DNA of 64,000 nt from Aradus depressus (Eukaryota > Arthropoda > Insecta > Hemiptera > Aradidae), in assembly GCA_963662175.1 (NCBI GenBank), contig OY759225.1, forward strand, positions 310,001 through 374,000, written 5' to 3'. A program made the translations under genes and the position numbers. The stretch's first letter is position 1, and the number at the start of each line of letters is the position of its first letter. This document shows positions 42,601-63,082 of the stretch, piece by piece. Under the pieces are notes generated by a model. The model was given only the letters and a program-made list of their open reading frames with translations, ran no database searches and was not told the DNA's origin.

Positions 42601-43575
42601 TATCTGAATCCTACACAAAAATTGAAATAGAAATGTTTTTCGAAAAAAGTCGGGCTAAATCCCATTCTTCAAATTTCCTGCTTTTTAACGGTTTATAGAT
42701 TTAATATTTGTTAAAACTGATAGACAGATTCAGATATATCGGGAAAGTCCCATCCGAAGGACGACGTGCTCAAGGTCTTTTGAACTTAAGTGAAACTTTA
42801 GCTACCTAGGTTTAGTTACATAACATACGACTCATTATCGAGCACCTGACATACAAAAAAGCCCTCGATCATAGCCTAAAGTCCAATCCGAAGGACGACG
42901 TGCTCAAATATATTTTTATCTTCCCGATTAAAACATCTGACCTAATTGACATGGATAGATTTCTAAATGGCGATCATGAGCTCGGTAGACTCCATTCTTC
43001 AAATTTCTAGCTTTTAAACGGTTTTTAGATTTAATATTTGTTAAAACTGATGAACAACCGGGATATCTGAATCCTACACAAAAATCGAAATAAAAATGTT
43101 TTTTGAAAAAATTCGGGCTAAATCCCATTCTTCAAATTTCTCGCTTTTTAACGGTATATAGGCTTAATATTAGTTAAAACTGATAGACAAATTCAGATAT
43201 ATCGGGTAGTCCCATCCGAAGGACGACGTGCTGAAGTTATTTTTAACGTAAATGAAATTTCAACTACCCAAGTTTAGATACATAACATACGACTCATTAT
43301 CGAGTACCTGACATACGAACAGTCCCTCGATCATAGCTTAAAACCCAATGCGAAGGACGACGTGCTCAAGTTATTTTTATCTTCCCGATTAAAACATCTG
43401 ACCTAATTGACTTGGCTAGATTTCGAAATGTCGATCCTGAGCTCGGTAAACTCCATTCTTCAAATGTCTCGCTTTTTAACGGTTTATAGTTTTAAAATTC
43501 AGATATATCGGGAAGTCCCATCCAAAGGACGACATGCTCAAGTTATTTTTAACGTAAATGAAGTTTAAATAGTTT
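39645..43575. repeat. Satellite array 2, ~460 bp compound unit
   Basis: Same unit as array 1, in the same orientation, with deletions and rearrangements. CCGAAGGACGACGTGCTCAA-type motifs recur about 19 times. The 140 bp GTGGAATATAAGTGGGCTTT block occurs at 39645 and 40922. The array ends near AACGTAAATGAAGTTT, next to the truncated R1-like copy. Confidence 0.9.
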
Positions 43576-44583: not shown

Positions 44584-46058
44584 AGTAAGGAAATGGGGAC
44601 TTTGGCGCAGTTGCTCCACATGACCTTTGACCCCACGGGGTCACGTGACCCATCACCCCCACCACCATACTCCCACCCCCTCCTCAGCTCCGAATCACTC
44701 ACCATCGTAAATCCCCAGCTCAATAAGTTTCCACTCTCCCTCTAAACCTCAATAAGTTTCCACTCTCCCTCTAAACTTCAATACGTTTCCGCTCTCCCTC
44801 TAAATCTTAATAAGTCCCCCCCCTCCCAAATTTTTTTTTGGACCAGTTGCTCCTCATGACCTTAGACCCACGTGACCCATCACCCCCACCATTCACCCCC
44901 CCCCCCCCCCTCCCCAGCTCCGAATCACCCACGATCGTACATTCCCAGGTCAATAACTACTGTAATATCGTTATATTTATAGCGATATCCTTATATTTTT
45001 TCTCAACTGTCCTTGATGATAGTTCCCCTTTAGCGTGTTTTATTCAGTAATTTTTTTTTAATATTGAATTTTTCTATAGTTTTATTAAAGATATATGTTG
45101 TTAACAAGTATCAGCGATCGTTTGGCTAGGCTATCTTCAAGGCTATCTTCGGGTACGCTCGGCTATCATCGGGTACGCTCGGCTTTCATCGGCTACCTTC
45201 AGGTGCCACCTGAAATGCCACCATTGTACATCCCTCAATAAGTTTCCGCTCTCCCTCAAAACAATACTTTAAATTTTTAACCCACCCCTCGCCTGTGCCC
45301 CTAAATTTTGTTTAATTAGCCCACTAGCGCTCCCAAGCGTCTAGAATTGTAATTAATCTTTAATTAAGTAGCTAAGGTCGACTTCTTATGAAAAAAAAAA
45401 ACTTACTTGACTGGTTTTGAGCTCACCACCTTCCGTATAGGAGGTTGGCTTGCTAACCCCTCGTCTATCGTGTCATAGTTGTTCAACAGAGCTAAAATCT
45501 AGGTATATAACGTTCGTCATAGATTTTCAGATATCAAGTAACAATTTTGATATTTTTTCAGTCTGATTTCGTGACCTTGAACAGGCACTTGCGTGTTCAA
45601 GCATGTCGAACCCTGCATTCGTGTAGCCTACCTTATCATGTCCTAGCATCATCATCATCATCATTGTATTCAGTATTATTTAAAACTGGAGTATTATGAT
45701 GGAAAAATCGCCTACCTACACTTTTGAGCATGCCGTCCTTCGGTGCCTTGAATAGTATTGCATTTAAAAATATAATTCAAAGCTCGTCATATTGAATATG
45801 TTGTCCGATTGGAGTAATATGTGCGAAAAAATATTTATCTTCAATTCCGAGCATGCCGTCCTTTGGTGTTGTTTGTGAATTCTTGTTTTTTATTATTATT
45901 TATTTTTTTTATATCTAACATGGTTTGGAAATGACCTTCATATCTATAGGGATTAAGTCGTTGTTTACATGTTCAAACATGTCGAGATATTTGGGGATTA
46001 TTTCTCTTGGTGACCCTGAACAGGCACCTGCATGATCAAGCATGTCGAGACCTGCAGT
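44584..46058. repeat. Polinton left terminal inverted repeat
   Basis: The reverse complement matches 57568-58263 plus 63083-64000. It contains a ~236 bp subrepeat (TTGCTCCACATGACC at 44611, TTGCTCCTCATGACC at 44847) and three GGCTATCATCGGGTACGCT units (45131-45200). It also has a tRNA-like segment on the minus strand (45391-45472), (ATC)n at 45649-45664 and two ~129 bp units with GAGCATGCCGTCCTTCGG (45727, 45856). The inner edge is at GTCGAGACCTG. Confidence 0.92.
45391..45472 (-). other. tRNA-like sequence with T-run in the left inverted repeat
   Basis: Reverse complement of the segment at 58151-58233. The minus strand reads GAGGGGTTAGCAAGCC, an arm-like CCAACCTCC..GGAAGGTGG and a decayed B-box region, then T11. 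The B box is better preserved in the right copy. Confidence 0.45.
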
Positions 46059-46106
46059 CCCCCCTCCCCTCTTTTTATCGAGTAATGCGCATGCGCAGAG
46101 TCGGTC

Positions 46107-46148
46107 TATATAAGGAGCAGCTCTCTCTGGGGGAGCTCATTCTTCAGT
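46107..46148 (+). promoter_or_regulatory. Core promoter of the Polinton polymerase gene
   Basis: TATATAAGG box at 46107. Initiator CTCATTC has its A at 46139, 32 nt downstream. It lies just inside the left inverted repeat. Confidence 0.75.
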
Positions 46149-46185
46149 GCTATTGAAGAGATCTACCTACTAATTTGCTGCTACA

Positions 46186-46506
46186 GTAAGTACTTTGTAA
46201 AATTATTTGATTGTCTCCTAATTATATTTTTGAGTGTTATATATATTTTGTTTTCTCTTTAATTCCGATATTATCTAAATAAATTCATCAATTAGTTTCG
46301 TTCATTTTCTCAAATTTGTTTCGTTTATTGTTTATATTCGTGTTTATATATGTAGTTTATTTCATTTTTGTTTCGTTCGTTGTTTGCCTACGTGTTTTAT
46401 ATAGTTAAATTTCAAATTTGTTTTGTTCGTGTTATATTTTTTACATTTATAGAAAAGTTTGGTTCATTGTTATTCATTTTGTTTTCTTTAATACGTGTTG
46501 GATTAG
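46186..46506 (+). other. Possible 5'-leader intron of polB
   Basis: A strong donor ACA/GTAAGTAC at 46186 and an acceptor GGATTAG at 46500-46506 after a T-rich tract would join the promoter-proximal leader to sequence nine bases upstream of the ATG at 46515. This is inference only. Confidence 0.35.
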
Positions 46507-46924
46507 ACTTAAATATGGAAGGTGATAGCGAAGTGTTTTTTCATATTTGTAAATTCTGTGCGATGTCTTTTAATAGAAAATATAATTGCACTAGACATGA
46601 ATATACATGTGAACAATTATCGAATGATGACGGTTTTAATGCAATTGCCGACACTATCTGTGAAAATTGTGGCAAAACATTTTCTCACACAGACAGCAGC
46701 ATGAGACATGAAGTAGGTTGTTATGGTAGCAATTACAACTTAACTTGTAAATATTGTAGTTGCACGTTCTCAAACCGCATATTGCACGAAAAACATGAAA
46801 ATGCTTGTTCAGACGAACCTCCTAATAAAAGACAACGGAAAACTATTAAAGAACTGTTAGCCTCCAGACCGGATAATCAAGGAATATCCGAATACGAGAC
46901 TGCTTTCGGAGGAAAATTAAAATT

Positions 46925-47349
46925 TTGGAGTCTTTTTTTCAAGTTATTCTATTCTAGAGGTATAACGTTACAATTAATTATGTTCATCTTATAATTCTAT
47001 TTACTCCAATCATTTGTAAGAGAGACCAGAACGGAAACGCGAATCTTAATTCCACATTTTAATTAAAAACCCAATGTGAAATTTGGAAAACCCCGGAGGT
47101 GTCGTATAAGACGCTCCTTCCTTGCATAGCCTTTTGTTAACCGCCGCTTATTCAGAAGTTATCGGGACTCAATAAGAATAGAATACTATCTTTCCATGTC
47201 CATCCCTTGGGAAACAACCCTATCTTTGCTAACCATGCCCTCTAGCAAATAACTTAGTTATGTACAAAAGAAACGGAAGATTGGATAGGTTGACAAAGCC
47301 TACATTGTAGAAATATCTCATATCCAAGATAATTCGACACTCCATTTTT
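46925..47349. other. Unidentified insertion within polB copy 2
   Basis: Sequence absent from copy 1, lying between the zinc-finger region and the central domain. Its edges show GGAGTC (46926) and GACACTCC (47337), a weak inverted pair, with T-rich flanks. There is no poly-A tail, LTR or convincing splice pair. It could be a small DNA transposon remnant. Confidence 0.45.
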
Positions 47350-49409
47350 TATTCGCAATGAAAATTTTACCGATATCAACAGTTTCCTTACAGCAGTTAA
47401 TGATAAGATAGTAACAAAACTTAATGAAACCCTAGACCGGCATAAATCTCTCAAATTCAATTTATTTTTAGATATTGAGTTAATTAATCAAACTTGTGAA
47501 ATATTAACAGCTTCACTAAAAACAAAAAAATCATCTTTATTAATAGAATCCAACATTAGCACAATTTTGGAAAATCAATATAATAAATTAATAAAAGAGT
47601 TGGAAGACATTGAGACCAAGAAAAGCGGTTGGAAATTGTATATAATTAATGGCCTCAGGATAAGAACATCCAAAAATAAACCTTTACGAGGGAAATCATA
47701 TATAGATTTACCACCAAACATTCGTGATAAACATGCATGTATCAATGTAAAAAACTATGACAACAAATGTTTTATGTACATTATATTAGCTAAATTCGTA
47801 GACAGAGATGCTGATCGTGTATCCAAATATAAGGTATTACAAGATAAATATAATTTCGAAAATGTTACATTTCCTGTTTCATTGAGGGACATTAAGAAAT
47901 TTGAAGACAACAATAACATTTCCATAAACGTTTTCGGTATTGATGATAAAAAAAATATCTACCCATTAAAGATTGTTAAAAAAGAGCTAATAGACCACAG
48001 AGATTTGTTGTTGCTTGAGGAAGGTGACAAACAACACTATGTATATATAAAACATTTTGATAGACTAATTAGAAGCCAGCTTACAAAACATAGAAGTAGT
48101 ATATATGTCTGCAAGCGTTGTCTCACATATTTTTATCATGAAACAACTTCACTTTGCGATTTCGAAGACCATAAAAAATTGTGCAATGATAATAAACCCT
48201 GTAAAGTCCAACTTCCAAACCCTCACAAAGCCTTTATACAATTTGAACACACAGAAAGACAAATCCGCGTACCATACGTGATTTATGCTGATTTCGAAGC
48301 AATTTTAGAGCCAATACCCCCCATTGATGATCCTAACGTTAAAACTACTCCCTACCAAAAGCATAAGCCCATATCTTTTTGTGCCCATGTAAAATCTAGT
48401 CCCGGAATCAATAATACCATAAGTTCTGAACCTTTAATCTATAGAGCCCCGATGCACCAGCTCAATTTATGAGATACATCACAGATGTAGCCAGACAAAT
48501 AAGTAATGTATATAAAACAAACCGAAGTATGCAAATTAATCACAATGAAATTAAAGAATGGAATGATGCAAGAACGTGTTATTTGTGTAATCAGGGATTC
48601 ACTGAAAATAATCATAAAGTAAAAGATCATTGTCACATTTCAGGAAAATTCCGTGGTGCAGCTTGCAATAATTGTAATTTGAAAGCAAAACACGTTTCTT
48701 TCATTCCAGTAATAATTCATAATTTGTCCGGCTATGACAGCCATTTCATAGTAAAAGAATTAGGTCTTGAACCTGATAATGTTGAAGTGATCCCTAACAC
48801 ACAAGAGAAGTACATATCTTTCACTAAATACGTAGGAGATATAAAACTCAGATTTATTGATTCTTTTAGATTCACGGCAGCTAGTCTATCTCACTTAATC
48901 AGTACATTACCAAAAACTGAATTTAAAGAAACCAGTAAATTTTTCACCCCTAGCGAAATCCCTCTAGTAACAAGAAAAGGTGTTTTTCCATACGATTATT
49001 TAGATTCGGAAGATAAATTAAATGATACATCCCTCCCGCCCAAAGAAGCTTTTTACTCAAAATTAAATGAAGAGGATATTTCTGAAAATGATTATGATCA
49101 TGCAAAGAAGGTCTGGGAACAATTTAAATGTAAAAACCTAGGAGAATACAGCGATTTATATTTAAAAACTGATGTTTACTTCTCTGCGATGTATTCGAAT
49201 ACTTCTTGTAATGATAAAATCCCATAAAGTTGACCCAGCACATTACTTCACTGCACCTGGCATGACGTGGGATGCAATGTTAAAATATACGAATATTAAA
49301 CTAGATTTGTTAACTGACTACGAAATGATATTAATGATGGAACGTGGAATTAGAGGCGGTATTTGTCAAGTGTCTCACCGATTTGCCGAGGCTAACAACA
49401 AAGACTTAC

Positions 49410-49676
49410 AGCACACCCTCTCTATCAGGCCTCGCCGTTCTCCCTTCAAACTGCCTGCTATAGGGCCTGCTGCGGGGAGAGGCCTGGTCGCGCCTCCCTT
49501 TGTCCCCTGGTCGGGCCTCGCCGCTCGTGGGGTGGCCCCTTGTCTCTGCCTGGCTTTTCTGTCTCGCACCTCTTGGTCTCCTGGTGAAGAGCTTAACCCC
49601 GACATTAATATCGCTGTACCGGGCACTCATGACCCTTAGCGGTTGAAATGCCCTCCAAAAAAAAAACAAAAAAAAA
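49410..49676 (+). mobile_element. GC-rich SINE-like insertion in polB copy 2
   Basis: The 267 bp insert begins AGCACACCCTCTCTATC, is GC-rich and unlike its surroundings, and ends in an A-rich tail. It is bounded by a perfect 13 bp duplication, AACAAAGACTTAC, at 49397-49409 and 49677-49689. Removing it restores polymerase codons around NKDL without loss. No clear tRNA-type A or B box was found, so its family is unknown. Confidence 0.9.
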
Positions 49677-50960
49677 AACAAAGACTTACCACATTACAAT
49701 CCACAAAAACAAAGCAGTTATATTATGTATTTTGACGCGAACAATTTATACGGCATGGCAATGAGTCAATATCTACCAACCGGGGGGTTTGAGTGGGTTC
49801 AAAATATTGATACTATAGATAGTAAATGGATAAATGACATTGAAGAAAACGGGGAACATGGTTATGTTTTTGATGTTAATATTAATTACCCTGAGCATTT
49901 ACACGAATACCAATGCGATTTGCCATTTTTACCAGACAATATTGCTCCTCCAAACAGTAAAATAAAAAAGCTAATACCCCATCTAGGACCTAGAAGTAAT
50001 TATGTTGTACATTATAAAGCTCTAAAGCAGGCTCTTTCCCACGGCTTAGAAATAACAAAAATCAACAGAATTCTTAAATTCAAACAAAGTCAATGGCTAA
50101 AACCTTATATAGATTTGAATACAGAATTAAGAAAAGCTGCTACAAATGATTTTGAAAAAGACTTTTATAGATTATTAAATAATGCAGTATTTGGAAAAAC
50201 TATGGAGTCCATACGCAAGAGATTAGATATTAAATTAGTAACGAACATGAAAAAAGCATTGAAACTTATTGCAAAACCTAACTTCAAAGACCGTACCATT
50301 TACTCAGAAAATTTAGTCGCAATCCAAATGGAAAAAAATTCCCTTTATTTTAATAAACCAATTTATGTAGGACAAGCAATTTTGGATATTTCAAAGACAA
50401 TAATGTACGAATTTCATTATAACGTTATGTTGAAGAAATGTGGCCCTAATACTATTTTGCTATACACCGATACAGATTCCTTAATTTATCTAATACTAAC
50501 TAATGATGCTTATGACGACTTAAAAAATATGGATGAACATTTTGATACTTCAGATTATCCCATTAACCACAAATGCTTTTCATTGAAAAATAAGAAAGTA
50601 CTAGGAAAATTCAAGGATGAGTTGAACGGAGTTGCAATGTGGAAATTTGTCGGACTTCGTCCAAAAATGTATGCAATAAAAATTGATGACATTATTAAGA
50701 AAAGGGCCAAGGGAGTCAAAGCAGCTTCCTTAAAGAAACATATAACTTTTGAAGATTACGAAAATATTCTTTTTCAACAGAGTGAAATGACCACCCCTAT
50801 GCGTATGTTCCAATCAAAGGAGCATACAATCACAACAGTTGAAATAAATAAAAGTTCTTCATCTAGCAGGGACGATAAGAGATTTATTTTAGATGATGGG
50901 ATTCGGACCCTTCCTTATGGTCATAAAAATCTAAATTTACCTGACTGTTTATTAGTTTGA

Positions 50961-51505
50961 ATTTATTTTATAAAAGCCGATTATTATTTTTGTTTGTTAC
51001 TTTTCGTTGAAGATAATATATTTATTTGTTTTGAGCCTAATGGTTTATTACCATTTTGTTGTATGAACTTATGTCATAAAAAAGATTCAAGTATGAATGG
51101 AGGTCCCTGGCGTGGTGCGTAAGGCACCCGTAAACCAGAATGAAGGTCACTGGCGAGGTAGTAAAATACCCGAAAACCTAACTGATGTAACGAAAACATA
51201 GTAGAGAAAAAAGGAAAATAATAAAAATAAAATTAACATGTAAAAAAAATAATAAAGCCCTTCAGGCTACAACTTCATAAAGCGCCTGAGGCTTTAACTT
51301 CGCCAAAGCCCGTTCCAAGCCGGGTTACAAAAGAAGGAGGAGGGTCTCAGGCTTTAACTTCACCAAAGCCCCGTTCCAAGCCGGGTAATGAACGAATTAT
51401 AGAATAGCTTGTACAATCTTGTATACAAAATAAAACCTATCTTTGCCCCCTCGATGTTGTAATAATCACACCACATCTGCAACCTCATGGTAGTCAGCGG
51501 AAAAC
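50961..51505. other. Intergenic region with conserved repeats downstream of polB
   Basis: Holds two GGTC(A/C)CTGGCG(T/A)GGT units (51102, 51145) related to 35381-35486. Two tandem ~70 bp blocks of GGCTTTAACTTC(G/A)CCAAAGCCC and GTTCCAAGCCGGGT follow (51291-51388). No coding frame. It could be a transcript end or replication-related region. Confidence 0.7.
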
Positions 51506-51541
51506 TATAAATAGCCGGAAGGCACTGATGTTTACTCAGTA
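51506..51541 (+). promoter_or_regulatory. Core promoter of the ATPase gene
   Basis: TATAAATA at 51506-51513. Initiator CTCAGT has its A at 51538, exactly 32 nt downstream. The leader to the ATG at 51548 would be only 10 nt. Confidence 0.8.
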
Positions 51542-51547
51542 GTCATC

Positions 51548-52207
51548 ATGCGCTTCGTGAAGCAGGAACAAAATCTTAAAGTGTTCTATAATGTCGGCAA
51601 TAGCTTACCTCGAGATCCCAAACATGGCCCTTTGTTTCCATCTAATTGCGGTAAAACCAACTTGATGCTGGCCTTACTATATGACCCCCATGGACCTAAG
51701 TTTGAGAACATATATCTTTTCAGCAAAACATTAAACCAACCTAAATACATACAGCTCTCGAAAGTTTTGGAAACAATTAAGGATATACATTTTTTTCCAT
51801 ATGGAGATCATTCGGAAATTCCTAATCCCAGTTTGGCTTTACCTAATTCTATTTTCATATTCGATGATATTTCATGCGACAGACAGGATCCAATCAGGTC
51901 TTACTTCTGTCAAGGACGTCATAATGGTGTCGACAGTTTTTATCTGGCACAGAGTTATACTCGCGTCCCAAAACATTTGATTCGGGACAATGCTAATTTC
52001 ATAATAGTCTTCAAACAAGATAATTTAAATATGAAGAGAATTTATGAAGACCATGTGAATTCTGACATGACCATTAATGATTTCAAAGAAATTTGTCAAA
52101 CATGTTGGGGGAGAGATAAGTATGGGTTTCTGGTTATCGATAAAGATAGTGATCTCAATAATGGGCGTTACCGCAAGGGTTTCGATACCTATATAATAGT
52201 TCAGTAG
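51548..52207 (+). CDS. Polinton packaging ATPase (FtsK/HerA-type)
   Basis: This 219-residue P-loop ATPase would pump element DNA into a capsid. The phosphate-binding loop reads PSNCGKTNLM, but the residue at the usual first Gly is Phe (LFPSNCGKT), and the preceding stretch (PRDPKHGPL) looks altered compared with the GPSNCGKT form usual in Polintons. The acidic strand SIFIFDDIS is the Walker B motif. A conserved DSFYLAQSYTRVPKHLIRDN segment follows. The frame is uninterrupted. The start is placed by the promoter 10 nt upstream. Its 3' end overlaps the next gene's promoter. Activity is doubtful if the loop is truly mutated. Confidence 0.88.
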   Translation: MRFVKQEQNLKVFYNVGNSLPRDPKHGPLFPSNCGKTNLMLALLYDPHGPKFENIYLFSKTLNQPKYIQLSKVLETIKDIHFFPYGDHSEIPNPSLALPNSIFIFDDISCDRQDPIRSYFCQGRHNGVDSFYLAQSYTRVPKHLIRDNANFIIVFKQDNLNMKRIYEDHVNSDMTINDFKEICQTCWGRDKYGFLVIDKDSDLNNGRYRKGFDTYIIVQ

Positions 52208-52224
52208 TCAAAGATCTATCCAGT
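52190..52224 (+). promoter_or_regulatory. Core promoter of the fourth-position gene, inside the ATPase 3' end
   Basis: TATATAAT at 52190 lies within the last codons of the ATPase frame. Initiator TCCAGTC has its A at 52222, exactly 32 nt downstream. ATG at 52237. Confidence 0.78.
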
Positions 52225-52236
52225 CAATCACAAACC

Positions 52237-53298
52237 ATGGAAGGAGCAACATCTAAGAGTGTCACTAGAGAACTCGAAGACATCAAAAGGTCCATACGAG
52301 ACAAATGTTATTTTTTGAAACGTAAAAGACAGGAATATGAGGAACATTTAAAATTAAAGTATAGGCCTATCATAAAACCTCTTGAGAATTTACTCCAGGA
52401 CCGAGTCATTGATAAGCCAAATCTCAAACAAGAAACAATGGAAAGCAAAATTAGACCATCTTTCTTACCCATTCCATCTACATCACGGTATGAACGAGAA
52501 GGAGAACGATTAGTGAAAGACGAAGTGGACGTACAATGGACTCCCAAATGGCATAAACAGACCCATTCTCCGACAGACCTCCGGTTCGAGGAAGCATCAT
52601 GTGCTCCCTCCCCTTCTACCTACGTAGATACACAGGATAGGGACAAAAGAACGGCCGAACCAACATGTATGCCTAGTTACTTGTGCGAGGAAGAAGTGAT
52701 TGAAACACCTTCCACGCCATTAGAGGAAGTTCAAACTGCGGCAATGTCTCTGAAAGGAAGAGAATTGGTTAGAAAGGGTTTGGAAGAGGTTGGTCCTATG
52801 ATTTTGATCCTCCTGGTGATTTTGATAGCCAGTACGGGATCCGCTACGATGGTGGAAATTTAATAATCGGAGATACAATAGTGTCCATAAGAGAAGATTG
52901 GCTAGATGTCGATGGAAATTTATACCAGGCCACACCAGGATTGTTCGAGCTTCTTTTCAAGAAGCAGCCAAATTGAAAATTGGTAAAAAGAAATTGATAT
53001 GAATAAATATAAAGAAATATTGAAGCTAACCAACGCACATAAGAAACGGTATAGCGAATCCGGAGGCTTGAACGTTCTTCCAAATTATTCGAAATATAGA
53101 GAAGTCATCTGTAAGCTTTTTCCAACCTCCACTACATCTACTTTGAAGAAAAAGAAAACTGGAAAGGGAGTTAATTTAAATCCAAATGATCTAGTTGAAA
53201 AATTAAGATATCTTTATGAAAATTTGACAAATGCAAACAGCTGGAAAAGCATAGAAAAAATTGAAATCCAATTGAAAAAAGGTGGGATCATTGTATAA
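52237..53298 (+). pseudogene. Conserved Polinton protein of unknown function, frameshifted
   Basis: The first part (52237 to about 52795) has a basic, coiled-coil-like N-terminus and a variable middle. The apparent hydrophobic tail of that frame (LILLVILIA) is an artefact: another frame over the same bases, from about 52798, encodes DFDSQYGIRYDG and later TPGLFELLFKK, a pattern I recognise from an uncharacterised protein common in arthropod Polintons. It stops at about 52975. A third frame from about 52987 supplies NKYKEILKLTNAH and the C-terminal NDLVEKLRYLYE region to 53298. One gene with at least two lesions is the simplest reading. Function unknown, perhaps virion-associated. Confidence 0.75.
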
Positions 53299-53334
53299 AT
53301 AAGATATCAAATCATTAGTCCATTCATTCACAGT
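53294..53334 (+). promoter_or_regulatory. Core promoter of the integrase gene, overlapping the upstream stop codon
   Basis: TATAAATA at 53294-53301 contains the TAA stop (53296-53298) of the preceding gene. Initiator TTCATTC has its A at 53326, exactly 32 nt downstream. ATG at 53339 gives a 13 nt leader. Confidence 0.82.
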
Positions 53335-53338
53335 CAAG

Positions 53339-54268
53339 ATGTCTGATGTTAAACATCAAATTGTAAACGAGTTGCACAAACCTGTGAGAAGAATATTTAG
53401 GAGGCGATCCATGATACTGAAAGGTATAGACGATTTGTGGCAAGCAGATTTGATTGAACTAATACCATATGCAAAGGATAATAGTGGTTTTAAATATGTC
53501 CTGACCGTAATTGACTGTTTTTCTAAATTTGCTTGGGCTGTTCCCATAAAACGAAAAACTGACAAAGAAGTGACTGATGCATTTCAAAGTATTCTCAAAG
53601 GAGAGCGACGACCTGGAAACCTACAGACTGATGAGGGAAAGGAATTTTATAATGTAAAATTCAAAAATCTAATGAAAACTTACAATATAAATCATTACTC
53701 AACATATAGCAATATAAAAGCTTGCATTGTCGAACGGTTCAATCGTACTCTAAAAAATGTAATTTGGAAACAGTTTAGTTTACAAGGTTCCTACAAATGG
53801 ATGCCTGTGATTCAGTCATTAGTGCTCAGATATAATAACACGAAACATCGAACCATAAATATGAAACCCTGCTGTGTCAAGGGAAAAGTTAAGGAAAAAT
53901 TGCTGTTGGAAAACGTATATTCGAAAAAAGGTTTACCCCAGAAACCAAAATATAAAGTAGGTGATTTCGTAAGAATATCAAAACATAAAAGCGCATTCGC
54001 TAAAGGATACAAACCCTCTTGGTCGACGGAAATATTTCAAATTAATGAAGTAAAACGAACCATACCCATCACTTATCATCTAAAGGACAATCAGGACGAG
54101 CTGATTGCCGGTGGGTTCTATGAACAAGAAATACAACCTGTTAAACATCCTGATATTTTTTTGGTAGAAAAGGATTTGAAAAGAAAAGGGGATAAAGTTT
54201 ATGTTAAGTGGTTGGGATTCGATGCTAAACACAATAGTTGGGTTGAAAAGAAAAATCTCAACCTATAA
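53339..54268 (+). CDS. Polinton integrase (RVE family) with C-terminal chromodomain
   Basis: This 309-residue retroviral-type integrase would insert the element with 6 bp duplications. The catalytic acidic residues are visible as D37 (LWQADLIELI), D98 (NLQTDEGKEFY) and E132 (CIVERFNRTLK), with YVLTVIDCFSKFAWAVP between. A helical and SH3-like middle (PKYKVGDFVRISKHK) precedes a chromodomain at about residues 262-309 (VEKDLKRKGDKVYVKWLGF, NSWVEKKNL). The frame is complete, and its TAA stop lies within the next promoter. No N-terminal zinc finger is evident. Confidence 0.93.
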   Translation: MSDVKHQIVNELHKPVRRIFRRRSMILKGIDDLWQADLIELIPYAKDNSGFKYVLTVIDCFSKFAWAVPIKRKTDKEVTDAFQSILKGERRPGNLQTDEGKEFYNVKFKNLMKTYNINHYSTYSNIKACIVERFNRTLKNVIWKQFSLQGSYKWMPVIQSLVLRYNNTKHRTINMKPCCVKGKVKEKLLLENVYSKKGLPQKPKYKVGDFVRISKHKSAFAKGYKPSWSTEIFQINEVKRTIPITYHLKDNQDELIAGGFYEQEIQPVKHPDIFLVEKDLKRKGDKVYVKWLGFDAKHNSWVEKKNLNL

Positions 54269-54300
54269 ATATACGTCATTCTACGTGCATCTTCCATTCT
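54264..54300 (+). promoter_or_regulatory. Core promoter of the protease gene, overlapping the integrase stop codon
   Basis: TATAAATA at 54264-54271 contains the integrase TAA (54266-54268). Initiator TTCCATTCT has its A at 54296, exactly 32 nt downstream. Confidence 0.82.
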
Positions 54301-54327
54301 TCATTCAACCTTCGTACTGTGAACATC

Positions 54328-54822
54328 ATGGACAGTAAATCCAACAAAACGAAGCTAGTTAAAAAAAAGCGCGTGATTCCGAATCCTAAAAAAATTGGAG
54401 GAATTCGTAAAATACTCAACATTAATCATACTCTATCTGAAGAAACAAAAAATGTTTTCAAGAGTTTTCCATCAATGGCACTTAGTAATTTTGATTTGAT
54501 AAAATTTGCAAAAAAGAATAAACTTCAGAATTTTAGAGGGGTTTTCATGAGAGATACCTTACCGAGTAAACCTTATAGTAAAGAAAACGCTATTTTCAAT
54601 TTAGATAAAAGTAGTGGTAAAGGCACTCATTGGGTATGCTACAGGAAAAATGGGAAATACGTTAAATTCTTTGATAGTGCGGGCACAAGTGGCCCCCCTT
54701 CGGAACTCGTGCGCTATCTGAAAGGGTGTCGAATAACGTTTGACTGCAAAACCTATCAAAGCTCCAACTCGAATATCTGTGGTCATTTATGTTTATTATT
54801 CCTGTTAAATCTTATAAATTAG
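54328..54822 (+). CDS. Polinton cysteine protease (adenain-like maturation protease)
   Basis: This 164-residue protease is placed at ATG 54328. An upstream in-frame GTG at 54319 is not needed, and 54328 is 32 nt after the predicted transcription start. The order of active-site residues matches adenovirus-type proteases: H101 (GTHWVCYR), D116 (FFDSAG), Q144 (TYQSSNSN) and C151 (ICGHLCLLFLL). The N-terminus is strongly basic (KLVKKKRVIPNPKK). It would process capsid precursors during particle maturation. The frame is intact. Confidence 0.92.
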   Translation: MDSKSNKTKLVKKKRVIPNPKKIGGIRKILNINHTLSEETKNVFKSFPSMALSNFDLIKFAKKNKLQNFRGVFMRDTLPSKPYSKENAIFNLDKSSGKGTHWVCYRKNGKYVKFFDSAGTSGPPSELVRYLKGCRITFDCKTYQSSNSNICGHLCLLFLLNLIN

Positions 54823-54885
54823 ACTGTCATTCATAATTTCATTCATTCATCGTCTGGACGTCGAATGATGCACATCAGGAGAGTA

Positions 54886-54922
54886 TATAAAGGCGTTAGG
54901 AAATCATCACAAACGTTTATTC
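54886..54922 (+). promoter_or_regulatory. Core promoter of the major capsid gene
   Basis: GTATATAAAGG with TATAAA at 54886. Initiator-like GTTTATTC has its A at 54919, 33 nt downstream. ATG at 55011. Confidence 0.65.
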
Positions 54923-55010
54923 TACCTATAACTGACAAAGGATCAACACCTCTGACTAAAGAGAATATTTCCTTTCTTCGTTTGGTCGGGTACAAAGTAT
55001 TGTCTTCGAC

Positions 55011-56238
55011 ATGGACATCTTAGATTTGGAACACGCAACTTTGGATAGTTCCATAGAAGGCGTGGAATATCATTCTCATTACCCTTACGCGTCGAGTAAA
55101 CTTCAGGCTGGAGATGAAATAAGAATTGCTGTACAACATCAAGACATATACACTTTGCCATCGTACAGTTTTCTTTATTTAGAAGGTCGGTTTTTGAAAG
55201 AGGATGGTACGGCGGTACCAACATCATCCAAATTAACGAATAATGCATTCGCATTCTTATTTGATGAAATCAGATATGATTTATGTGGAATCGAAATAGA
55301 TCGGGTTAGAAATCCGGGTATAACTACCACTTTGAAGGGCTTAGTGTCGTACAGAAACGGGTCAGTCAATCTGGAGAGTCAGGGCTGGTGTTCTTCTAAT
55401 AGCAGTACTTTGAACATTACATCGCCTGAGGGATATTTCAACGTTTGTATACCTCTCAGCAGCCTTCTTGCGTTCGAAGAAGATTATAAAAAAGTTATAA
55501 TTAACGTTAAACAGGAATTGGTGCTTATTAGATCCAGAAGAGACGACAATTGTTACTTAGTCGCGGCTAATAATGAAAATAACCTTGCAGAAAGGGCTAA
55601 AATCGAGCTTACCAAACTTTGTTGGAAACTCCCGTACGTAACAGTTAATGAATATAGAAGATTATCGCTTCTTCGACATTTGAGATCGGAGAAAGTAATT
55701 TCGGTTGGCTTCAGGAGTTGGGAGTTGTACGAATACCCGCTATTACCTGCTACACAAAGACAAGTGTGGGCGGTTAAAACATCTAATCAGATGGAGAAAC
55801 CTCGATACATAATATTAGCATTCTCAACCAACAGGACAAATAACATTCATAGGGATGCTGCCTCTTTTGATCATTGTCATCTGTCCAATGTTAAACTGTA
55901 CCTAAATTCGAAATCATATCCCTATGATGATCTTAATATTAACTTTGATAGAAATCAATATGCAGTTTTTTACTACATGTACGCAGGTTTCCAAAGCTCT
56001 TATTACCCCGAATAACCATCACATCCCCTACTTTCAAAATTTCAAGGACAAAGCTCCTTTAGCGGTGATAGATTGTCCAAAGCAATCGGAGTCCATTAAG
56101 ACCGGACCGGTGGACGTTCGTCTAGAATTTGAAGCGACGCAAGCTTTCCCTGCTGATACCACGGCTTATTGCATAATCATACATGATAGCGCCATAGAAT
56201 ACAACCCCCTCACAAATGTATTGCGAAGACTGCTATAA
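55011..56238 (+). pseudogene. Polinton major capsid protein (double jelly-roll), one frameshift
   Basis: The first frame (55011 to about 55990) gives about 325 residues with SYSFLYLEGRFLKEDG, NNAFAFLFDEIRYDLCGIEI and ELYEYPLLPATQRQVWAV, a pattern I associate with Polinton/adintovirus-type major capsid proteins. After QSSYY the frame is lost by a one-base change. The neighbouring frame continues with VIDCPKQSESIKTGPVDVR and ends at TAA 56236-56238. The total span of 1228 bases fits one single-base indel in a gene of about 409 codons. The protein would form the icosahedral shell. The stop codon lies inside the next promoter. Confidence 0.85.
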
Positions 56239-56270
56239 ATAACAACCCTGTTTCAATTAGACCTCAGTTG
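56234..56270 (+). promoter_or_regulatory. Core promoter of the last Polinton gene, overlapping the capsid stop codon
   Basis: TATAAATA at 56234-56241 contains the capsid TAA (56236-56238). Initiator CCTCAGT has its A at 56266, exactly 32 nt downstream. ATG at 56276 gives a 10 nt leader. Confidence 0.83.
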
Positions 56271-56275
56271 CAACC

Positions 56276-56785
56276 ATGGCCTCCAACGAAGCGGTTATTG
56301 TTGAGATTCAGTGTTTCCTGAACGATAACTTGGAATATATTTTGAAAGAACTGTCCATTATGGACGTTACCCGCTTTGCTAGTAGACACTGGATATTCAA
56401 ATCCCCTAAACAACCTATTACAAATGTAAAGAGCATAAGATCAAATAGATGGCTTATGAAAAATTACCACAGATTAGAATGGAGTGATGGGGAAACTGAA
56501 TACGAAGAAGTTGAACATATTCTAATGACTACCCTACTGAAATATCGATACATTTTTGTCAAGGGATTGGAAAAGAAGAGGTTTTTATATAATTTACTTA
56601 GACACGAGAATATTGTTAATATGGAATATTATGGTTGCCCAAGAGTTGAAACATTATCTCCTATTTCAGGATCAGAGTGCCTTTTGCATTCAAAGTTCCC
56701 AAACATGTGTACTCATTATAGGGTTCACGTATTAAGAGACTGGATAATGTCCAATTATGATTTTATATTGCTATTCTTTTTTTGA
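56276..56785 (+). CDS. Conserved Polinton protein of unknown function
   Basis: An intact 169-residue frame with its own promoter. Visible features are VIVEIQCFLNDN and LKELSIMD near the N-terminus, YIFVKGLEKKRFLYNLL in the middle, MEYYGCPRVETL, and a C-terminal MCTHYRVHVLRDWI. The spacing of an N-terminal acidic pair, a KGxEKxxxL block and a C-terminal Cys/His block recalls uncharacterised proteins of animal Polintons. A nuclease-like or RNase H-like fold is conceivable, but no catalytic set can be proved here. It could alternatively be a minor capsid component. Confidence 0.7.
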   Translation: MASNEAVIVEIQCFLNDNLEYILKELSIMDVTRFASRHWIFKSPKQPITNVKSIRSNRWLMKNYHRLEWSDGETEYEEVEHILMTTLLKYRYIFVKGLEKKRFLYNLLRHENIVNMEYYGCPRVETLSPISGSECLLHSKFPNMCTHYRVHVLRDWIMSNYDFILLFFF

Positions 56786-57567
56786 GATCATAAAACTATA
56801 GTATTTTTTATTTATTTTGTTTTTGTTTGTATTTTTTTCAAACAAGGAAAATTTTGATTTGATTATTTTGATTTAATTTACCTAATAGAAACGCTTTTCG
56901 TTTTAAAAAAAGTTTATTTGCTATTGTTCTTTTTATTAAATTATATAAAGGTAAAGCTGGTTATTTTGTTGAGGTAGCTTTCATTGGAATGGTGAGGAAA
57001 GCTATAAACGTCTGAAGGTTGTGGGGATGAAGGCTTGGAGAGGCTATTGACGCACGCAGGTCGTATGACTGAAGGTTTGGAGAGGTTATAGACGCCCGCA
57101 GACCATGATTGTGTAAATGCCTGCAGGTTGGGGAAAGTTTTAGACTCACGCAGACAATTTTTTTTTTTTTATTGAAAGCTACTTCAACCATTCCTCCTCG
57201 AAGCACCTTCACCTTAACGCGGTGGGGAGGCTTTCTACTAAGAAAGGTGCTTATATGAATCTAACAATTTAGTTCTGTTTCAGTAAATAAAGAATGTTTT
57301 ACAAAACAAGAACCCATTCATGATGACCAGGTGACTAGAAAGACACTGGACCGATCTCCTAAAAAAACTAGGAGACGGATATAAAATGCAGTATGAGCAA
57401 TGGAAGAATCAAGAAAACATTGAAAATATAATATGAAATTCAATACACAAAACTGTATGTAAATGAGGCTAAATAAAAATCCATATCTACTATTATAAAT
57501 TAAGTGTATTTTCCAATATCCTAAAATTCGTATTCTCTGTGTATATGATGGTGAAGTATGCCTGCAA
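56786..57567. other. Polinton right subterminal non-coding region
   Basis: AT-rich, then two to three degenerate ~65 bp units (GAAGGYTTGGAGAGG, TAGACGCCCGCAG) at 57000-57150. An inverted pair TAGCTTTCA (56975) and TGAAAGCTA (57173) follows, and a CCTTAACGCGGTGGGGAGGCTTT block at 57212-57234 is related to 35577-35600. No gene is seen. Confidence 0.65.
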
Positions 57568-58263
57568 CAACAGGTCTCTACATGCTTGATCATGCAGGTG
57601 CCTGTTCAGGATCACCAAGAGAAATAATCCCCAAATATCTCGACATGTTTGAACATGTAAACAACGACTTAATCCCTATAGATACGAAGGTCATTTCTAA
57701 ACCATGTTAGATATAAAAAAAATAAATAAAAAACAAGAATTCACAAACAAAACCAAAGGACGGCATGCTCGGAATTGAAGATAAATATTTTTTTGCACAT
57801 ATTACTCCAATCGGACAACATATTCAATATGACGAGGTTTGAATTATATTTTTAAATGCAATACTATTCAAGGCACCGAAGGACGGCATGCTCAAAAGTG
57901 TAGGTAGGCGATTTTTCCATCATAATACTCCAGTTTTAAATAATACTGAATACAATGATGATGATGATGATGCTAGGACATGATAAGGTAGGCTACACGA
58001 ATGCAGGGTTCGACATGCTAGATCACGCAAGTGCCTGTTCATGGTCACGAAATCAGTCTCAAAAAATATATAAATCGTTACTTGATATCTGAAAATGTAT
58101 GACGAACGTTATATACCTAGATTTTAGCTCTCTTGAACATCTATGCCACGATAGACGAGGGGTTAGCAAGCCAACCTCCTGTACGGAAGGTGGTGAGTTT
58201 CGAATCCCGTTAGGAATGTTTTTTTTTTTTTTTGTTTTCTTAAGAAGTCACACCTAATTGTTT
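57568..58263. repeat. Polinton right terminal inverted repeat, inner part
   Basis: Reverse complement of 46058 to about 45375. Contains two CCGAAGGACGGCATGCTC-type motifs (57753, 57877), (GAT)n and a tRNA-like segment. It is interrupted by the LINE at 58264 and continues at 63083. Confidence 0.92.
58151..58233 (+). other. tRNA-like sequence with T-run in the right inverted repeat
   Basis: GACGAGGGGTTAGCAAGCC (A-box-like), an arm CCAACCTCC..GGAAGGTGG, GAGTTTCGAATCCCG (B-box-like with one extra T), then T15 that could end Pol III transcription. The acceptor stem is not convincing, so this is not called a tRNA gene. Confidence 0.5.
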
Positions 58264-58794
58264 TAATCTAGTCCCTCAGTCCTCGTCCCAATGTCAACCA
58301 CCTCTTGGCGGACTTTCTTGTTGATTCTTCACATTAAATTAATCGCTTACAATAATTTTCATTTATTTACTTGATTTTTTTTTTTTTTTTTCTTCTGTGG
58401 CTTTAGTGTTTTAAAGTCCTTAGAGGAATAATAATGATAATAAATGTATTTCCGTTAAACCAATACATGTTAATAGGATAGGGTACGTCAAAAGAATTTA
58501 AACATTAAGATAGCTTATAGTGCCCCACCAGCTCCCGAGGTGGAAACACGTACTTATTTTCGTGCTGTCTCGACTTCAAATTGTCTATGATTTTGTGAAT
58601 TATTGTTTTGTTTTGTGCATCACTATCTAGACTTTTGGGATGAATAGTGAGTAACTAACAGTTTCTTTTTGTTTTTTTCTATTTATTAAATTTCGAAATG
58701 TGTAGTGAGTGACGCCGATCCTGTCAAGTCCTGTCTGCCGGGCACTCAAGTGATACTCTATATATGGTTCTGGCTCCATTTCTATCACTGTCAC

Positions 58795-58886
58795 CGTGGA
58801 GTAGGAGCTAGACGTTGTCCCTTCTAACTGGAAGGTACCGAGTTCAAGGCTGCCTCTCGCACTTTTTTTTTTTTTTTTTTTTTTTT
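58795..58886 (+). other. tRNA-like segment and T-run before LINE ORF1
   Basis: TGGAGTAGGAG resembles an A box, CCTTC/GAAGG can pair as an arm, and GAGTTCAAGGC resembles a B box. A T24 run follows at 58863-58886, 32 bp before the ORF1 ATG. It may be a captured Pol III promoter or chance. Confidence 0.4.
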
Positions 58887-58918
58887 GTTAATTATCATTA
58901 CTTTATTTATTTCTAAAA

Positions 58919-60198
58919 ATGGATGTTGTTCAAGACGACAATTCAGGATTCAATGTCGTCAGTAGTAAAGCACGGAAGCGAACCTACAAGAAAGCTTCAG
59001 ATGCAAATAAAACAGGTTCACCCCAAACTAAACAAGCCAAAAACACGGAAGGAGAAACCTCAGAGGATGAAGCCAGCCTTCCCCCTCCCTCCACATCCCA
59101 GCAACCCGCCAACACCCAAGTCCCCAAGCCACCTCCTATCGTTGTGAAGAATATCTCAGACTTCAAAAAGTTCTGCTCCCAGCTAATTAGGACTGTTGGA
59201 GAGGGGACTTTAACGTGCCGCTCCCGTCTCTACGACCTAGTCGTTTACCCCCAAGACAGCGACACCTTCAGAAAGACTGTGAAGCATCTTGAAGACACCG
59301 AGGCTGACTTTCATTGTTATCAGCTTCGGGAAGACAGGTCTTACCGGGTAGTAATAAGAGGACTGCACCATTCAACGCAACCCGATGAGATTAAATCGGC
59401 GCTTTTTCAAAAGCACGGGTTCAGCGTGAAAAACGTTAATAATGTGCGTCATCCTATCTATAAGACACCTCTTCCCCTCTTCTTCGTGGACCTGGCTATA
59501 AGTGAAAAGAGCAAAGAAATATTTAAGTTACAGTATTTACGTACACAAGAATACAGGTCGAGGAACCGCGACGCAGAAAAGATATCCCTCAATGCACAAA
59601 ATGCCAGGAGTATGGCCACACTGACTCTTACTGCCACCATCCCCCCAGATGTGTGAAGTGTCCGGGCAATCATCTTACGGCGGACTGTGCTAAGAAGGAC
59701 CGTATTGAACCCGCGATCTGCGTCCTTTGCGGGGATAACCACCCAGCCAACTACAGGGGTTGCCAGGTCCACAGAGAAATACAAGATCGTATGAAGAAGA
59801 GGCAAGCTGCAGCCAAACCCCCCATGAAGACACCGACGGCTCCTTCACCAGTCCCACCGCCACCATTGAGACCAGTGCCCCAGCTCAGGTTCCAGCCAGC
59901 TGCAGCCCGTCAGCCCAGAGCCACCTCCTCACTTCCCCGGTCCTACGCCCAAGTGGCCAGCCCACCACGAACACAGCCACCTTCTACCTCTCACTACCCA
60001 CCTCCTACCTCTCACTACCCCCAACAGCCAAAAAACCTTCCTCATCCTCTCCCATCCAGCCAGCTCCCTACATCCTCAACCCCTGATGTTATCAGTCACC
60101 TCACCTCCTTTCTCAATGACTTTAAGTCGTTAATCACCCCTCTCATATCGATGTTAAGCCTCCTCGTCTCTAAACTCCTACCCGAATCCTCCCGATGA
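58919..60198 (+). pseudogene. Jockey-like ORF1 (Gag-like RNA-binding protein), one frameshift
   Basis: The ATG at 58919 opens a basic, Ser/Pro-rich N-terminus, then a PRE_C2HC/RRM-like region (YRVVIRGLHHSTQPDEIKSA, LPLFFVDLA). A one-base shift near 59565 diverts the first frame, which ends at 59656. The other frame carries the zinc knuckles CTKCQEYGHTDSYC, CVKCPGNHLTADC and CVLCGDNHPANYRGC, and a Pro-rich tail to TGA 60196-60198. The stop overlaps the ORF2 ATG as ATGA. The protein binds element RNA. Confidence 0.88.
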
Positions 60199-62900
60199 TC
60201 CCTTTAAATTCCTTTCCTCTCCAGATCCTCCTTTGGAATTCGAATGGGCTGTTACCCCATAGACAAGAACTAGAACTACTACTAACTGACAGACATGTAG
60301 ACATCGCTCTCATTACGGAAACCCACTTGACAACCAGCCTGTACTTCAGTATCCCAGGATACCGGAGCTACAGGTCTGACTACCCAGGAGATAGGGCCCG
60401 AGGTGGCGCACTCATCCTTATCAAACAGTCCTTATCCCATCACCTTTTCTCCTCACAGGCTACAGAATCATTCCAAATCGCTACGATCTCCTTGTCACTT
60501 TTTCCCTTCCCTGTCACTATCTCGGCAGTATATTGTACTCCCAGTAAACTCATTCCCCATCACGAGTTCCTCACCCTTTTCCGATCCCTGGGGCCTCGCT
60601 TCATCGTTGGCGGTGACTTCAATGCGAAGCACCACCAGTGGGGAAGCAGAGTTCCAAATTCCCGAGGACGAATCCTAAACGATGTTATTAACACCCAACA
60701 CTATGACATCTACTCCCCCGGCTCTCCCACCTATTGGCCTACTGATCCTAACCGCAACCCAGACCTCGTAGACTTCTTTGTTGGATCTGGCACAGGATCC
60801 TTATTCTCCTCTACCTATTCCTTCCCCGACTTATCCTCAGACCATAGTCCTGTTCTCCTCACCGTTGGTCTAACCCCGTTATCTGTCCCATCAAAGCCTT
60901 CCTTAACTCCCGGCCCAGTGAATTGGGACCTCTTCAGAACCTCCTTAGAAAACCAAATTGACTTAAATGTAATCCTTAAAACTCCTGAGGACTTAGATGA
61001 AGCCGTACAAAAATTCACTAAAGCCATACAGGACTGTGCTTGGAACGCTTCATCTACTCCTACTCCTACAGTTTCAAACCCGAACCCTCCTCTTCCTCGC
61101 CACATCCAACTTCTCCTTTCAGAAAAACGCCGCGCTCGTGCCCTATGGCAACGAACACGGTATCCTTCCGACAAAACTGCCTTCAATAACCTTTCCCGAA
61201 ACCTCAAAATCCAACTTTCACAATTCCGCTCCGAAAATTATAATGAATACCTAGCTTCCCTTTCCACCAAAGATAATTCCCTGTGGTTTGCAACCCGAAA
61301 AATTCTAAAATATAGTCCTTTATCCTATCCCATCAAGCAAAATGGCTCCTGGGTCAGATCCGACGAGGAGAAGGCTCAGCTCTTTGCCTCTCACCTCAAA
61401 AATACGTTCACACCCCATCCTGATTATAACGCCCTTCATACTTCAGAAGTTGAAGAGTTCCTTACCAGTCCTTTGCCTCTCTCTCCTCCGCCAAAGGCCT
61501 TTCATCCCTCTGATGTACAACACATTCTAAATAAAATTCCAATCCGTAAGTCTCCTGGATTTGACCTGATCACAGGGAAAATCCTACGAAACCTTTCCCG
61601 CAAAGCTGTCCTATTCCTCACCCTTATATACAACTCAGTCCTCAGAACTACCTACTTTCCTGTCCAATGGAAGTATTCCATCCTTACTGTTATTCCCAAA
61701 CCCAACAAACCTCTCTCTGATGTCTCTTCCTACCGTCCTATTAGCTTGCTCCCAATCTTCTCTAAAATCCTTGAAAAACTTTTGTTGAAACGTTTTATCC
61801 CAATCCTTGAATCTCAATCCATTTTACCTAAACACCAGTTTGGATTTCGTCCTGAACATTCCACTACCCAACAGTGTTTTCGGGTTGTCGATTGCATATC
61901 TAATGCATTAGAATGCAAGGAGTATTGCACGGGCGCCTTTCTCGACGTGGCGCAAGCCTTTGATCGAGTCTGGCACCCGGGGCTGCTCTTCAAACTGAAA
62001 CACTTCCTTCCCAGTACCTACTACCTCATCCTGAAATCTTACCTTAGTGATCGCCATTTCAAGGTCCGAGTAGGCTCTGAGTACTCAGAACTCATACCTA
62101 TTCGGGCCGGTGTCCCACAGGGTAGCATCCTAGGTCCCATCCTTTACAATACATATACTGCCGACATTCCTATCCATCCTCAGACATTACTGACGACTTA
62201 CGCTGACGACACAGCAATCCTTTCCACCAATCCTGATCCTGCTGTAGCCTCACTCATCCTCCAGGAGCACCTCACTGAAATAGAGAGGTGGTGCAACCTC
62301 TGGAGAATTAAATTAAATGAGCAGAAATGTGTTCAAGTCACATTTACCCTACGCCGTCAATCCTGTCCTCCCGTCATCATTAACAACATCCTGATTCCCT
62401 CTTCAAACCAAGTCCGCTATCTCGGGTTTTACCTAGACAGTAGACTTACGTGGAACCCACATACACGACTTAAACGACAAGAACTGAATCGATGATACGG
62501 ACTGTTACGTCGACTACTTGGACCAAAATCGAAACTGACGACTAACAACAAACTTACGATTTACAAGACCATTATACGTCCAATTTGGATTTACGGACTC
62601 GAACTTTGGGGTACAGCTAAACAATCCAACATCAATCGTATCCAAGCATTCCAGTCCAAACTCCTCCGACGAATTGTCAATGCTCCTTTCTATGTCACCA
62701 ATAAAGTCCTACACAGAGATCTCAGTATTCCCACTGTAAATGAATTAATCAAATCCCGATTCCAATCATTCCACCGAAACCTTTCTTCCCATTCAAATCC
62801 TCTCGCACAAGACCTTTCCTCTCATTCCCATCCTGACAATCCTCCCCGCCGCTTGAACAGGAGGTGGCCTCGCGATCTTCTCTCGGAGGATAGTGAATAA
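60195..62900 (+). pseudogene. Jockey-like ORF2 (endonuclease and reverse transcriptase), one nonsense codon
   Basis: ATG at 60195 overlaps ORF1 by 4 bp. Endonuclease motifs are WNSNGLLPHRQELE, ALITETHL, GGDFNAKHHQWGS and DLSSDHSPVLLTV. Reverse transcriptase motifs are YRPISLLPIFSKILEKLL, FLDVAQAFDRVWH, AGVPQGSILGPILYN and TTYADDTAIL (about 62194-62223). A TGA at 62493-62495 follows LKRQELNR. The same frame then stays open (YGLLRRLLGPKSKL, RPIWIYGLELWG) to TAA 62898-62900, the expected C-terminus. A CGA to TGA change would explain it. The full length of about 901 codons fits the Jockey group, which lacks RNase H. Confidence 0.92.
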
Positions 62901-63021
62901 TGACAATTAACTTTCGAGGGAGTGTCAGCGCTGGCTGGCTTCTCCCATCAAGTGACGTTATATTTTTCTTTTACCACATATTTGCTTATTATGTATATAT
63001 TGTATATAGATTGCAAATAGA

Positions 63022-63074
<53 letters not shown>
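62901..63074 (+). other. LINE 3' untranslated region and poly-A tail
   Basis: Short untranslated stretch with GTGTCAGCGCTGGCTGGC, then GAATAAA followed by an A-run from about 63024. Confidence 0.85.
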
Positions 63075-63079
<5 letters not shown>

Positions 63080-63082
63080 TTT

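Follow-up and report, generated by a model that had tools for sequence, protein, structure and literature searches.

Putative promoter pairs in an Aradus depressus Polinton

A stretch of 64,000 nucleotides (nt) from the hemipteran Aradus depressus (contig OY759225.1, positions 310,001 to 374,000; hereafter the window) contains one adintovirus-like Polinton. The element has the terminal inverted repeats that mark Polintons/Mavericks, and all of its genes lie on the + strand in the order type B DNA polymerase (PolB), packaging-ATPase-like protein, mCP, integrase, protease, a small open reading frame (ORF) of 52 amino acids (aa), capsid and a last gene. Most of these genes are preceded by a TATA box and an initiator (Inr) at a nearly constant distance, and the pairs look like ordinary arthropod-type core promoters of RNA polymerase II (Pol II) in a compact element. 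The genes are:

46515-50960, + strand: PolB gene, a broken copy with pieces in ORFs 46515-46994, 47774-48472, 48469-49227, 49169-49639 and 49725-50960, one of which matches PF03175 (6.6e-7)
51548-52207, + strand: packaging-ATPase-like gene, matched at 42-53% in other families
52237-53298, + strand: gene labelled mCP (a label without established function), broken into 52237-52863 and 52999-53298
53339-54268, + strand: rve integrase with chromodomain (PF00665, 6e-13; PF00385, 4.8e-7)
54328-54822, + strand: adenain/S273R-like cysteine protease, with its own ATG in the window copy
54865-55023, + strand: small ORF of 52 aa upstream of the capsid gene, overlapping its start
55011-56238, + strand: double jelly-roll major capsid gene, frameshifted into 55011-56015 and 55924-56238 (PF21738, 1.8e-89 and 7.9e-20)
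56276-56785, + strand: last gene, no function assigned

The ATPase-like product has only a weak match, to the Zot-like family phrog_197 (0.0044), and its homologue in locus L010 displays a clear P-loop-like GPSACGKT. The protease matches the S273R protease 6lj9 (6.9e-05), and a Pfam search with it gave no match. The mCP gene is intact elsewhere, as a single 361-aa ORF in the related copy L027 and as ORFs of 339-421 aa in several other families. Among the best 120 capsid matches, the closest named proteins come from Rhodnius prolixus, Cimex lectularius and Macrosteles.

The initial annotation had reported seven TATA/initiator pairs, and we recovered every one at its coordinates. Six have exactly 32 nt between the first T of the box and the A of the initiator (46107/46139, 51506/51538, 52190/52222, 53294/53326, 54264/54296 and 56234/56266), and a further pair at 54813/54845 adds to the original seven. 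The predicted promoters are:

46107-46144, + strand: promoter 1 (PolB-side gene); TATATAAG at 46107, Inr TCATTC with its A at 46139, 32 nt
51506-51543, + strand: ATPase-gene promoter; TATAAATA and TCAGTA, 32 nt, leader 10 nt
52190-52227, + strand: promoter of the mCP gene at 52237; TATATAAT in the final ATPase codons and CCAGTC, 32 nt, leader 15 nt
53294-53331, + strand: integrase promoter; TATAAATA holding the upstream stop TAA 53296, and TCATTC, 32 nt, leader 13 nt
54264-54301, + strand: protease promoter; TATAAATA holding the integrase stop TAA 54266, and CCATTC, 32 nt, leader 32 nt
54813-54850, + strand: small-ORF pair; TATAAATT ending at the protease stop TAG 54820, and TCATTC with its A at 54845, 32 nt, leader 20 nt
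54886-54924, + strand: capsid promoter, within the small ORF; TATAAAGG and TTATTC, 33 nt, leader 92 nt
56234-56271, + strand: promoter of the last gene at 56276; TATAAATA holding the capsid-gene stop TAA 56236, and TCAGTT, 32 nt, leader 10 nt

Each pair places its TATA box within the 27-34 nt 5′ of the initiator that characterize a Pol II core promoter. The leaders of about 10-15 nt first predicted for four genes match the distance from initiator to next ATG at the ATPase-like, mCP, integrase and last genes. The leader of the first ORF would measure 376 nt if unspliced; splicing between a candidate donor (GTAAGT at 46186) and a candidate acceptor (TTAG, last base 46506) would shorten it to about 55 nt. 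Immediately 5′ of the left TATA box, positions 46086-46097 form a TGCGCATGCGCA palindrome, which we take to be NRF1-like. At the capsid gene the 33-nt distance of the 54886/54919 pair is confirmed (35 nt if measured from TATATAAA at 54884), its initiator being weak and lying in codons of the small ORF.

With motifs modelled on the reported sites themselves, the + strand of 45391-58228 yields seven pairs at exactly 32 nt, namely six of those reported and 54813/54845, compared to a mean of 0.14 (maximum 2) in 1000 dinucleotide shuffles; the - strand of the same region yields none at this distance. An independent consensus, the Drosophila TATAWAAR and TCAKTY (PMC1538597) with one mismatch allowed in each, returns nine pairs at 32 nt, compared to a mean of 1.18 (maximum 6) in 500 shuffles, where the top count at any one distance was 7, and it returns one pair on the - strand. 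Six of these nine are pairs of the initial annotation, and the remaining three (46272, 50922 and 57284) lie away from gene starts. The 54813/54845 pair is absent because its box has two mismatches to TATAWAAR and fails one-mismatch tests. By both sets of motifs, pairs at 32 nt greatly exceed chance expectation. When every distance is scored permissively, a broad rise appears at 28-35 nt, together with echoes 2 nt apart from TATATATA. In 44-45 kb of neighbouring DNA, pairs are far fewer than in the Polinton. A matrix built from nine host histone promoters finds two pairs at 32 nt (shuffle mean 0.06, maximum 1); we dropped it as a detector of TATAAATA boxes, since most of its training boxes are TATATA and it finds few pairs for that reason.

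The same arrangement is present at the host's own genes. Nine distinct histone loci of 20 have, by eye, a TATA box and a plausible initiator 29-32 nt apart; at three of them (L060, L062 and L066) alternative registers of a repeated TATA give 28-33 nt. Five of the nine carry TCAGT, CCAGT or TCATT as initiator; the remaining four have a weaker one. Mouse TATA promoters are described as having mainly 27-34 nt, with 30 and 31 commonest (PMC1779604). According to PMC1538597, Drosophila TATA-Inr pairs are over-represented at centre distances of 30-34, peaking at 31-32, with the TATA centre placed at the second T. If the A is taken as the Inr centre, distances measured from first T to A would come out about 2 nt larger. 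The passage on spacing in PMC1550435 gives 25-30 nt for Drosophila. The initial annotation had described a fixed 32-nt spacing at the Polinton genes; because the histone, mouse and Drosophila centre-distance ranges include it, it falls within normal Pol II geometry and is no speciality of Polintons.

The repeats around the element were located as follows.

44608-46054: left terminal inverted repeat, in two stretches, 44608-45355 (matching 63095-63807 at 91.5%) and 45391-46054 (matching 57571-58229 at 94.7%)
57571-58229: inner part of the right terminal inverted repeat, the remainder of which restarts at 63095
58240-63090, + strand: non-LTR retrotransposon with ORFs 58919-59656 and 60195-62495 and a poly-A tail; borders approximate

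The retrotransposon is inserted in the right inverted repeat of the Polinton, splitting it. Diverged repeats, tandem and interspersed, form long arrays to the left of the element (36855-43570).

Recurrence and candidate recoding in other families of the genome

We searched the host genome (698 Mb, 74 contigs) and fetched 28 integrase loci, which we sorted into lettered families by integrase scores rather than by a tree. Six representatives besides the window's family (B, L010; C, L016; D, L025; E, L019; F, L022; G, L023) have integrases 45-56% identical. A gene start was counted as positive if it had a pair 30-34 nt apart with the initiator 5-35 nt 5′ of the ATG, with 300 shuffles as background; for the ATPase gene of L010 the homologous start 33 nt downstream of the first ATG was used. 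A pair is present at 11 of 18 homologous gene starts in the six families (shuffle mean 1.84, maximum 6), compared to 29 of 301 internal and 20 of 204 antisense ATGs. With one TATA mismatch allowed, the counts are 6/18 starts versus 3/301 internal and 7/204 antisense ATGs. The window's own starts score 6/6 versus a shuffle mean of 0.61, and 5/6 versus 0.07 at one box mismatch; its control ATGs score 4/76 (internal) and 5/87 (antisense). Spacing in the 11 positive starts is 30-33 nt, so the strict 32 nt belongs to the window's family.

Within the window's family, seven copies (L002-L008) keep the spacing of five pairs in all cases, and L027 keeps it in four of five, its protease pair being 31 nt and its integrase box CTTAAATA. 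As the window-family copies are 93-97% identical to the window, this conservation is weak evidence. No relatives turned up in IMG/VR when it was scanned with the integrase and a capsid alignment. In L027 (minus-strand orientation, around 6271-6431), an insert of about 160 nt in the last-gene promoter carries a copy of the left-end promoter, 80% identical, with TATATAAG, 32 nt, TCATTC and a GCGCATGCG element; a promoter has been duplicated inside the element. Contig C14 (16.4 Mb, about 2% of the genome) carries 42 of 128 scored integrase matches (128 of 2065 candidates scored), and is possibly a sex or otherwise non-recombining chromosome.

The small ORF also precedes the capsid gene in other families, overlapping or touching it, and its conserved C-terminal motif LT..N..FL..LG.K is common to the window copy. 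The 54813/54845 pair, whose box touches the protease stop, would be the small ORF's own promoter. Capsid starts were compared in 20 stretches, some with a broken or unclear start, of which seven were inspected. By eye, a TATA-like box lies within the small ORF of five families (TATATAA in B, C and E, TTTATAAT in G, CATATAAAAA in H), with TTAGTA, TCAGTA or CCAGTA about 32-35 nt downstream. A fixed test accepts a capsid promoter in the small ORF of three of the five families (E, G and H; shuffle mean 0.55, with the maximum of 3 reached in 1% of shuffles), family H passing through a different pair from the one seen by eye; at one box mismatch two of five families pass.

Several families appear to express the protease by another route. 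In families B, C, D and G it follows PLA2X, a protein with a PF08398 phospholipase A2 domain (its Adeno_PX match is weak and under the cut-off) that bears the name in use for a Megastigmus wasp adintovirus. The two genes share one frame across a single TGA followed by CT and then A, T or G in 18 of 18 copies (seven, L009-L011, L013, L017, L023 and L024, plus eleven, L088-L098). These copies are near-identical within families, and at least two of them (L090 and L092) carry other damage; counted independently, the evidence is that of four families. No ATG precedes the conserved protease stretch LP.RALTN...FRG in these families, the first one lying at its end. The TGA is a candidate for stop-codon readthrough; pseudogene decay is an unlikely source of it, because copies of four families have the same stop. 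In families E and H (4/4 copies, L079-L082), PLA2X ends at A_AAA_AAC with stops directly after and the protease in the -1 frame, a candidate programmed frameshift; family H has one ATG within the conserved protease stretch. An A-run joins the two frames in two of five slices of a further family, and in family F the protease ATG and the stop before it overlap. Simple folding downstream of these junctions, which was not compared with shuffles, brought out no strong RNA structure. PLA2X and the protease are joined directly in P0277, a metagenome protein of 409 aa (among the best 120 of 1706 matches, four of which were inspected).

In the window element PLA2X was not found by tblastn with two queries, and the protease has its own ATG and predicted promoter instead. 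For related elements, PMC11071296 suggests -1 frameshifting for penton and for hexon-adenain; its passages on the subject do not name PLA2X-protease. With somewhat better than even confidence, we propose that insect Polintons use two interchangeable tricks, host-type core promoters embedded in neighbouring coding sequence and retrovirus-like recoding: in six of nine sampled families the virion protease, which lacks an ATG before its conserved N-terminal stretch, would be a C-terminal extension of PLA2X, reached by UGA readthrough or -1 frameshifting, and in the window's family the protease would have a promoter of its own, with a TATA box that doubles as the integrase stop.

Transcription units and gene junctions

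Host Pol II very probably starts each gene of the window's adintovirus-like Polinton separately. That the pairs drive transcription, the start sites, the common 3′ end and the intron in the first leader we infer from the DNA sequence. TBP/TFIID would bind the TATA box of each gene. Transcription would begin 30-34 nt further on (nearly always 32 nt in the window's family), at an initiator of arthropod type (TCAKT and variants), and most genes would have leaders of about 7-32 nt. Placing the box at the end of the preceding gene would save space and, frame permitting, TATAAATA would supply that gene's TAA stop; the capsid promoter would lie wholly within the small upstream gene. A single poly(A) region beyond 56785 probably serves the genes after PolB in the window's family; their mRNAs would then form a nested set, with the 5′-proximal ORF of each translated.

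Signals for 3′ ends follow PolB (AATAAA at 51220, 51226, 51251 and 51429) and lie past the last gene (AATAAA at 57286 and 57472, ATTAAA at 56935). Within 51430-56785, AATAAA occurs at 53002 and 54517 only and ATTAAA at 51730 and 52353 only, all inside ORFs; no canonical poly(A) signal stands at the internal post-PolB junctions of the window element. For this reason nested mRNAs with a common 3′ end are likelier than separate transcripts, and the signal positions suggest one 3′ end per block. Of the proposal of one separate transcript per gene, the separate promoters before most genes are supported, and a common 3′ end suits the window's family better than separate ones. Elsewhere, AATAAA is found 14 nt (family C) and 5 nt (family G) after the integrase stop.

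The same lack of internal signals could be read as the mark of a polycistronic RNA from a single left-end promoter, spliced or re-initiated, with the internal pairs as relics or minor starts. The candidate splice donor downstream of the left promoter fits such an RNA, as do genes in relatives without a pair or with a few nt of overlap (capsid ATGA, protease TAATG). However, such an RNA ought to terminate at the poly(A) signals that follow PolB (51220-51429), before reaching the ATPase gene, and internal pairs recur despite differing gene order between families. We consider a single polycistronic RNA improbable.

Three junctions carry the upstream stop within the next gene's TATA box, as originally described, with the TAAs at 53296, 54266 and 56236 each 2 nt into TATAAATA; the 52190 box likewise lies in the last ATPase codons, 15 nt 5′ of the stop. 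This exact 2-nt register, found at three of five window junctions and at the ATPase junction of family G, could reflect a dedicated coupling device kept by selection, through which one gene's transcription or termination regulates the next. The integrase starts of family C and of copy L027 point the same way, each having a degenerate CTTAAAT variant that includes TAA; the stop before the family C integrase lies within a degenerate CTTAAATT box. The same junction is, however, fused in one family and unfused in others (ATPase-mCP: fused in G, unfused in A, B, C and D). As TATAAATA contains TAA and ends the preceding ORF in one of three frames, tight packing alone explains the fusion, and a coupling device is decidedly unlikely. 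The fusion for compactness that had been proposed is real at the three junctions and needs no special function.

That the pairs are chance matches in AT-rich, A-rich compact DNA with the initiator adjusted to fit is very improbable: TATA-like words are frequent (39 on the + strand of 12.8 kb), the permissive score offers many alternative distances and three of the nine independent-consensus pairs lie away from gene starts, but pairs are far fewer in shuffles, on the opposite strand, in neighbouring DNA and at internal and antisense ATGs, and the pattern is repeated in divergent families.

Several observations weigh against initiation by host Pol II at each gene. Seven of the 18 starts in other families have no pair (the ATPase gene of G, the 170-aa gene of D and G, and the integrase of B, D, F and G, four of six integrase starts); in family B the integrase ATG comes 2 nt after the preceding stop, and in family G the integrase overlaps the preceding gene. 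Recoding (in-frame UGA-CU or A_AAA_AAC) would provide the protease in six of nine families. The regions upstream of starts are AT-rich, and likeness at the 52190 position, where the box overlaps codons of a D-T/S-F/Y-I/M motif found in several families, may partly reflect protein constraint. The small-ORF pair of the window fails the stricter threshold. A shared 3′ end fits poorly with the ATTAAA directly after the stop preceding the integrase in family C and with several AATAAA between the ATPase gene and the next gene in family F (L022), and depletion of AATAAA in the post-PolB ORFs is not significant under synonymous shuffling (fraction at or below the observed value 0.23; 0.07 with ATTAAA). 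The window copy itself is damaged, with PolB, the 52237 gene and the capsid gene each in pieces, and all related families come from one genome. This promoter grammar does not extend to all starts. Taken together, spacing, shuffles and relatives support separate, tightly packed host-type Pol II promoters before most genes.

Relation to known promoter systems

The two motifs are the same as those of arthropod TATA/Inr core promoters, as in host histone genes and the Drosophila consensus. Unlike those, several Polinton promoters lie within neighbouring ORFs, and leaders are mostly 7-32 nt. Among arthropod viruses, the early promoters of white spot syndrome virus (WSSV) and of baculoviruses are described in PMC1550435 and PMC5988703 as a host-like TATA box with a TCANT or CAGT initiator per gene, and 19 polycistronic baculovirus RNAs have their 3′ end in common with the gene furthest downstream (PMC5988703); both viruses additionally have a late promoter class with other motifs. 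Mavirus and EMALE virophages, which are relatives of Polintons, also have a promoter motif upstream of ORFs, but according to PMC8547959 this TCTA motif matches the late promoter of a giant virus, unlike the host Pol II type found here. With adintoviruses and vertebrate Mavericks, the window element has in common PolB, a chromodomain integrase, adenain and a hexon-like capsid. Host Pol II, a TATA box and an initiator likewise serve the TATA-driven units of adenovirus, among them the major late promoter. Adenovirus late genes depend on one common promoter and splicing, whereas here most genes have their own.

The transcription of animal Polintons seems hardly to have been described so far. A literature search of titles and the beginnings of abstracts, with subscription papers mostly out of reach, found no account of their core promoters. 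The word promoter is absent from the main text of PMC11071296, and it occurs twice in PMC8097293, neither time for the element's own promoters, with TATA absent.

If the grammar outlined here holds, any insect RNA data set can serve to check the start sites it predicts, and Polinton copies could be described by promoter state besides their ORFs. The element would be wired for host Pol II and not for a helper virus, as virophages are, and the Polinton would offer a clean case of promoters fitted into overlapping coding sequence.

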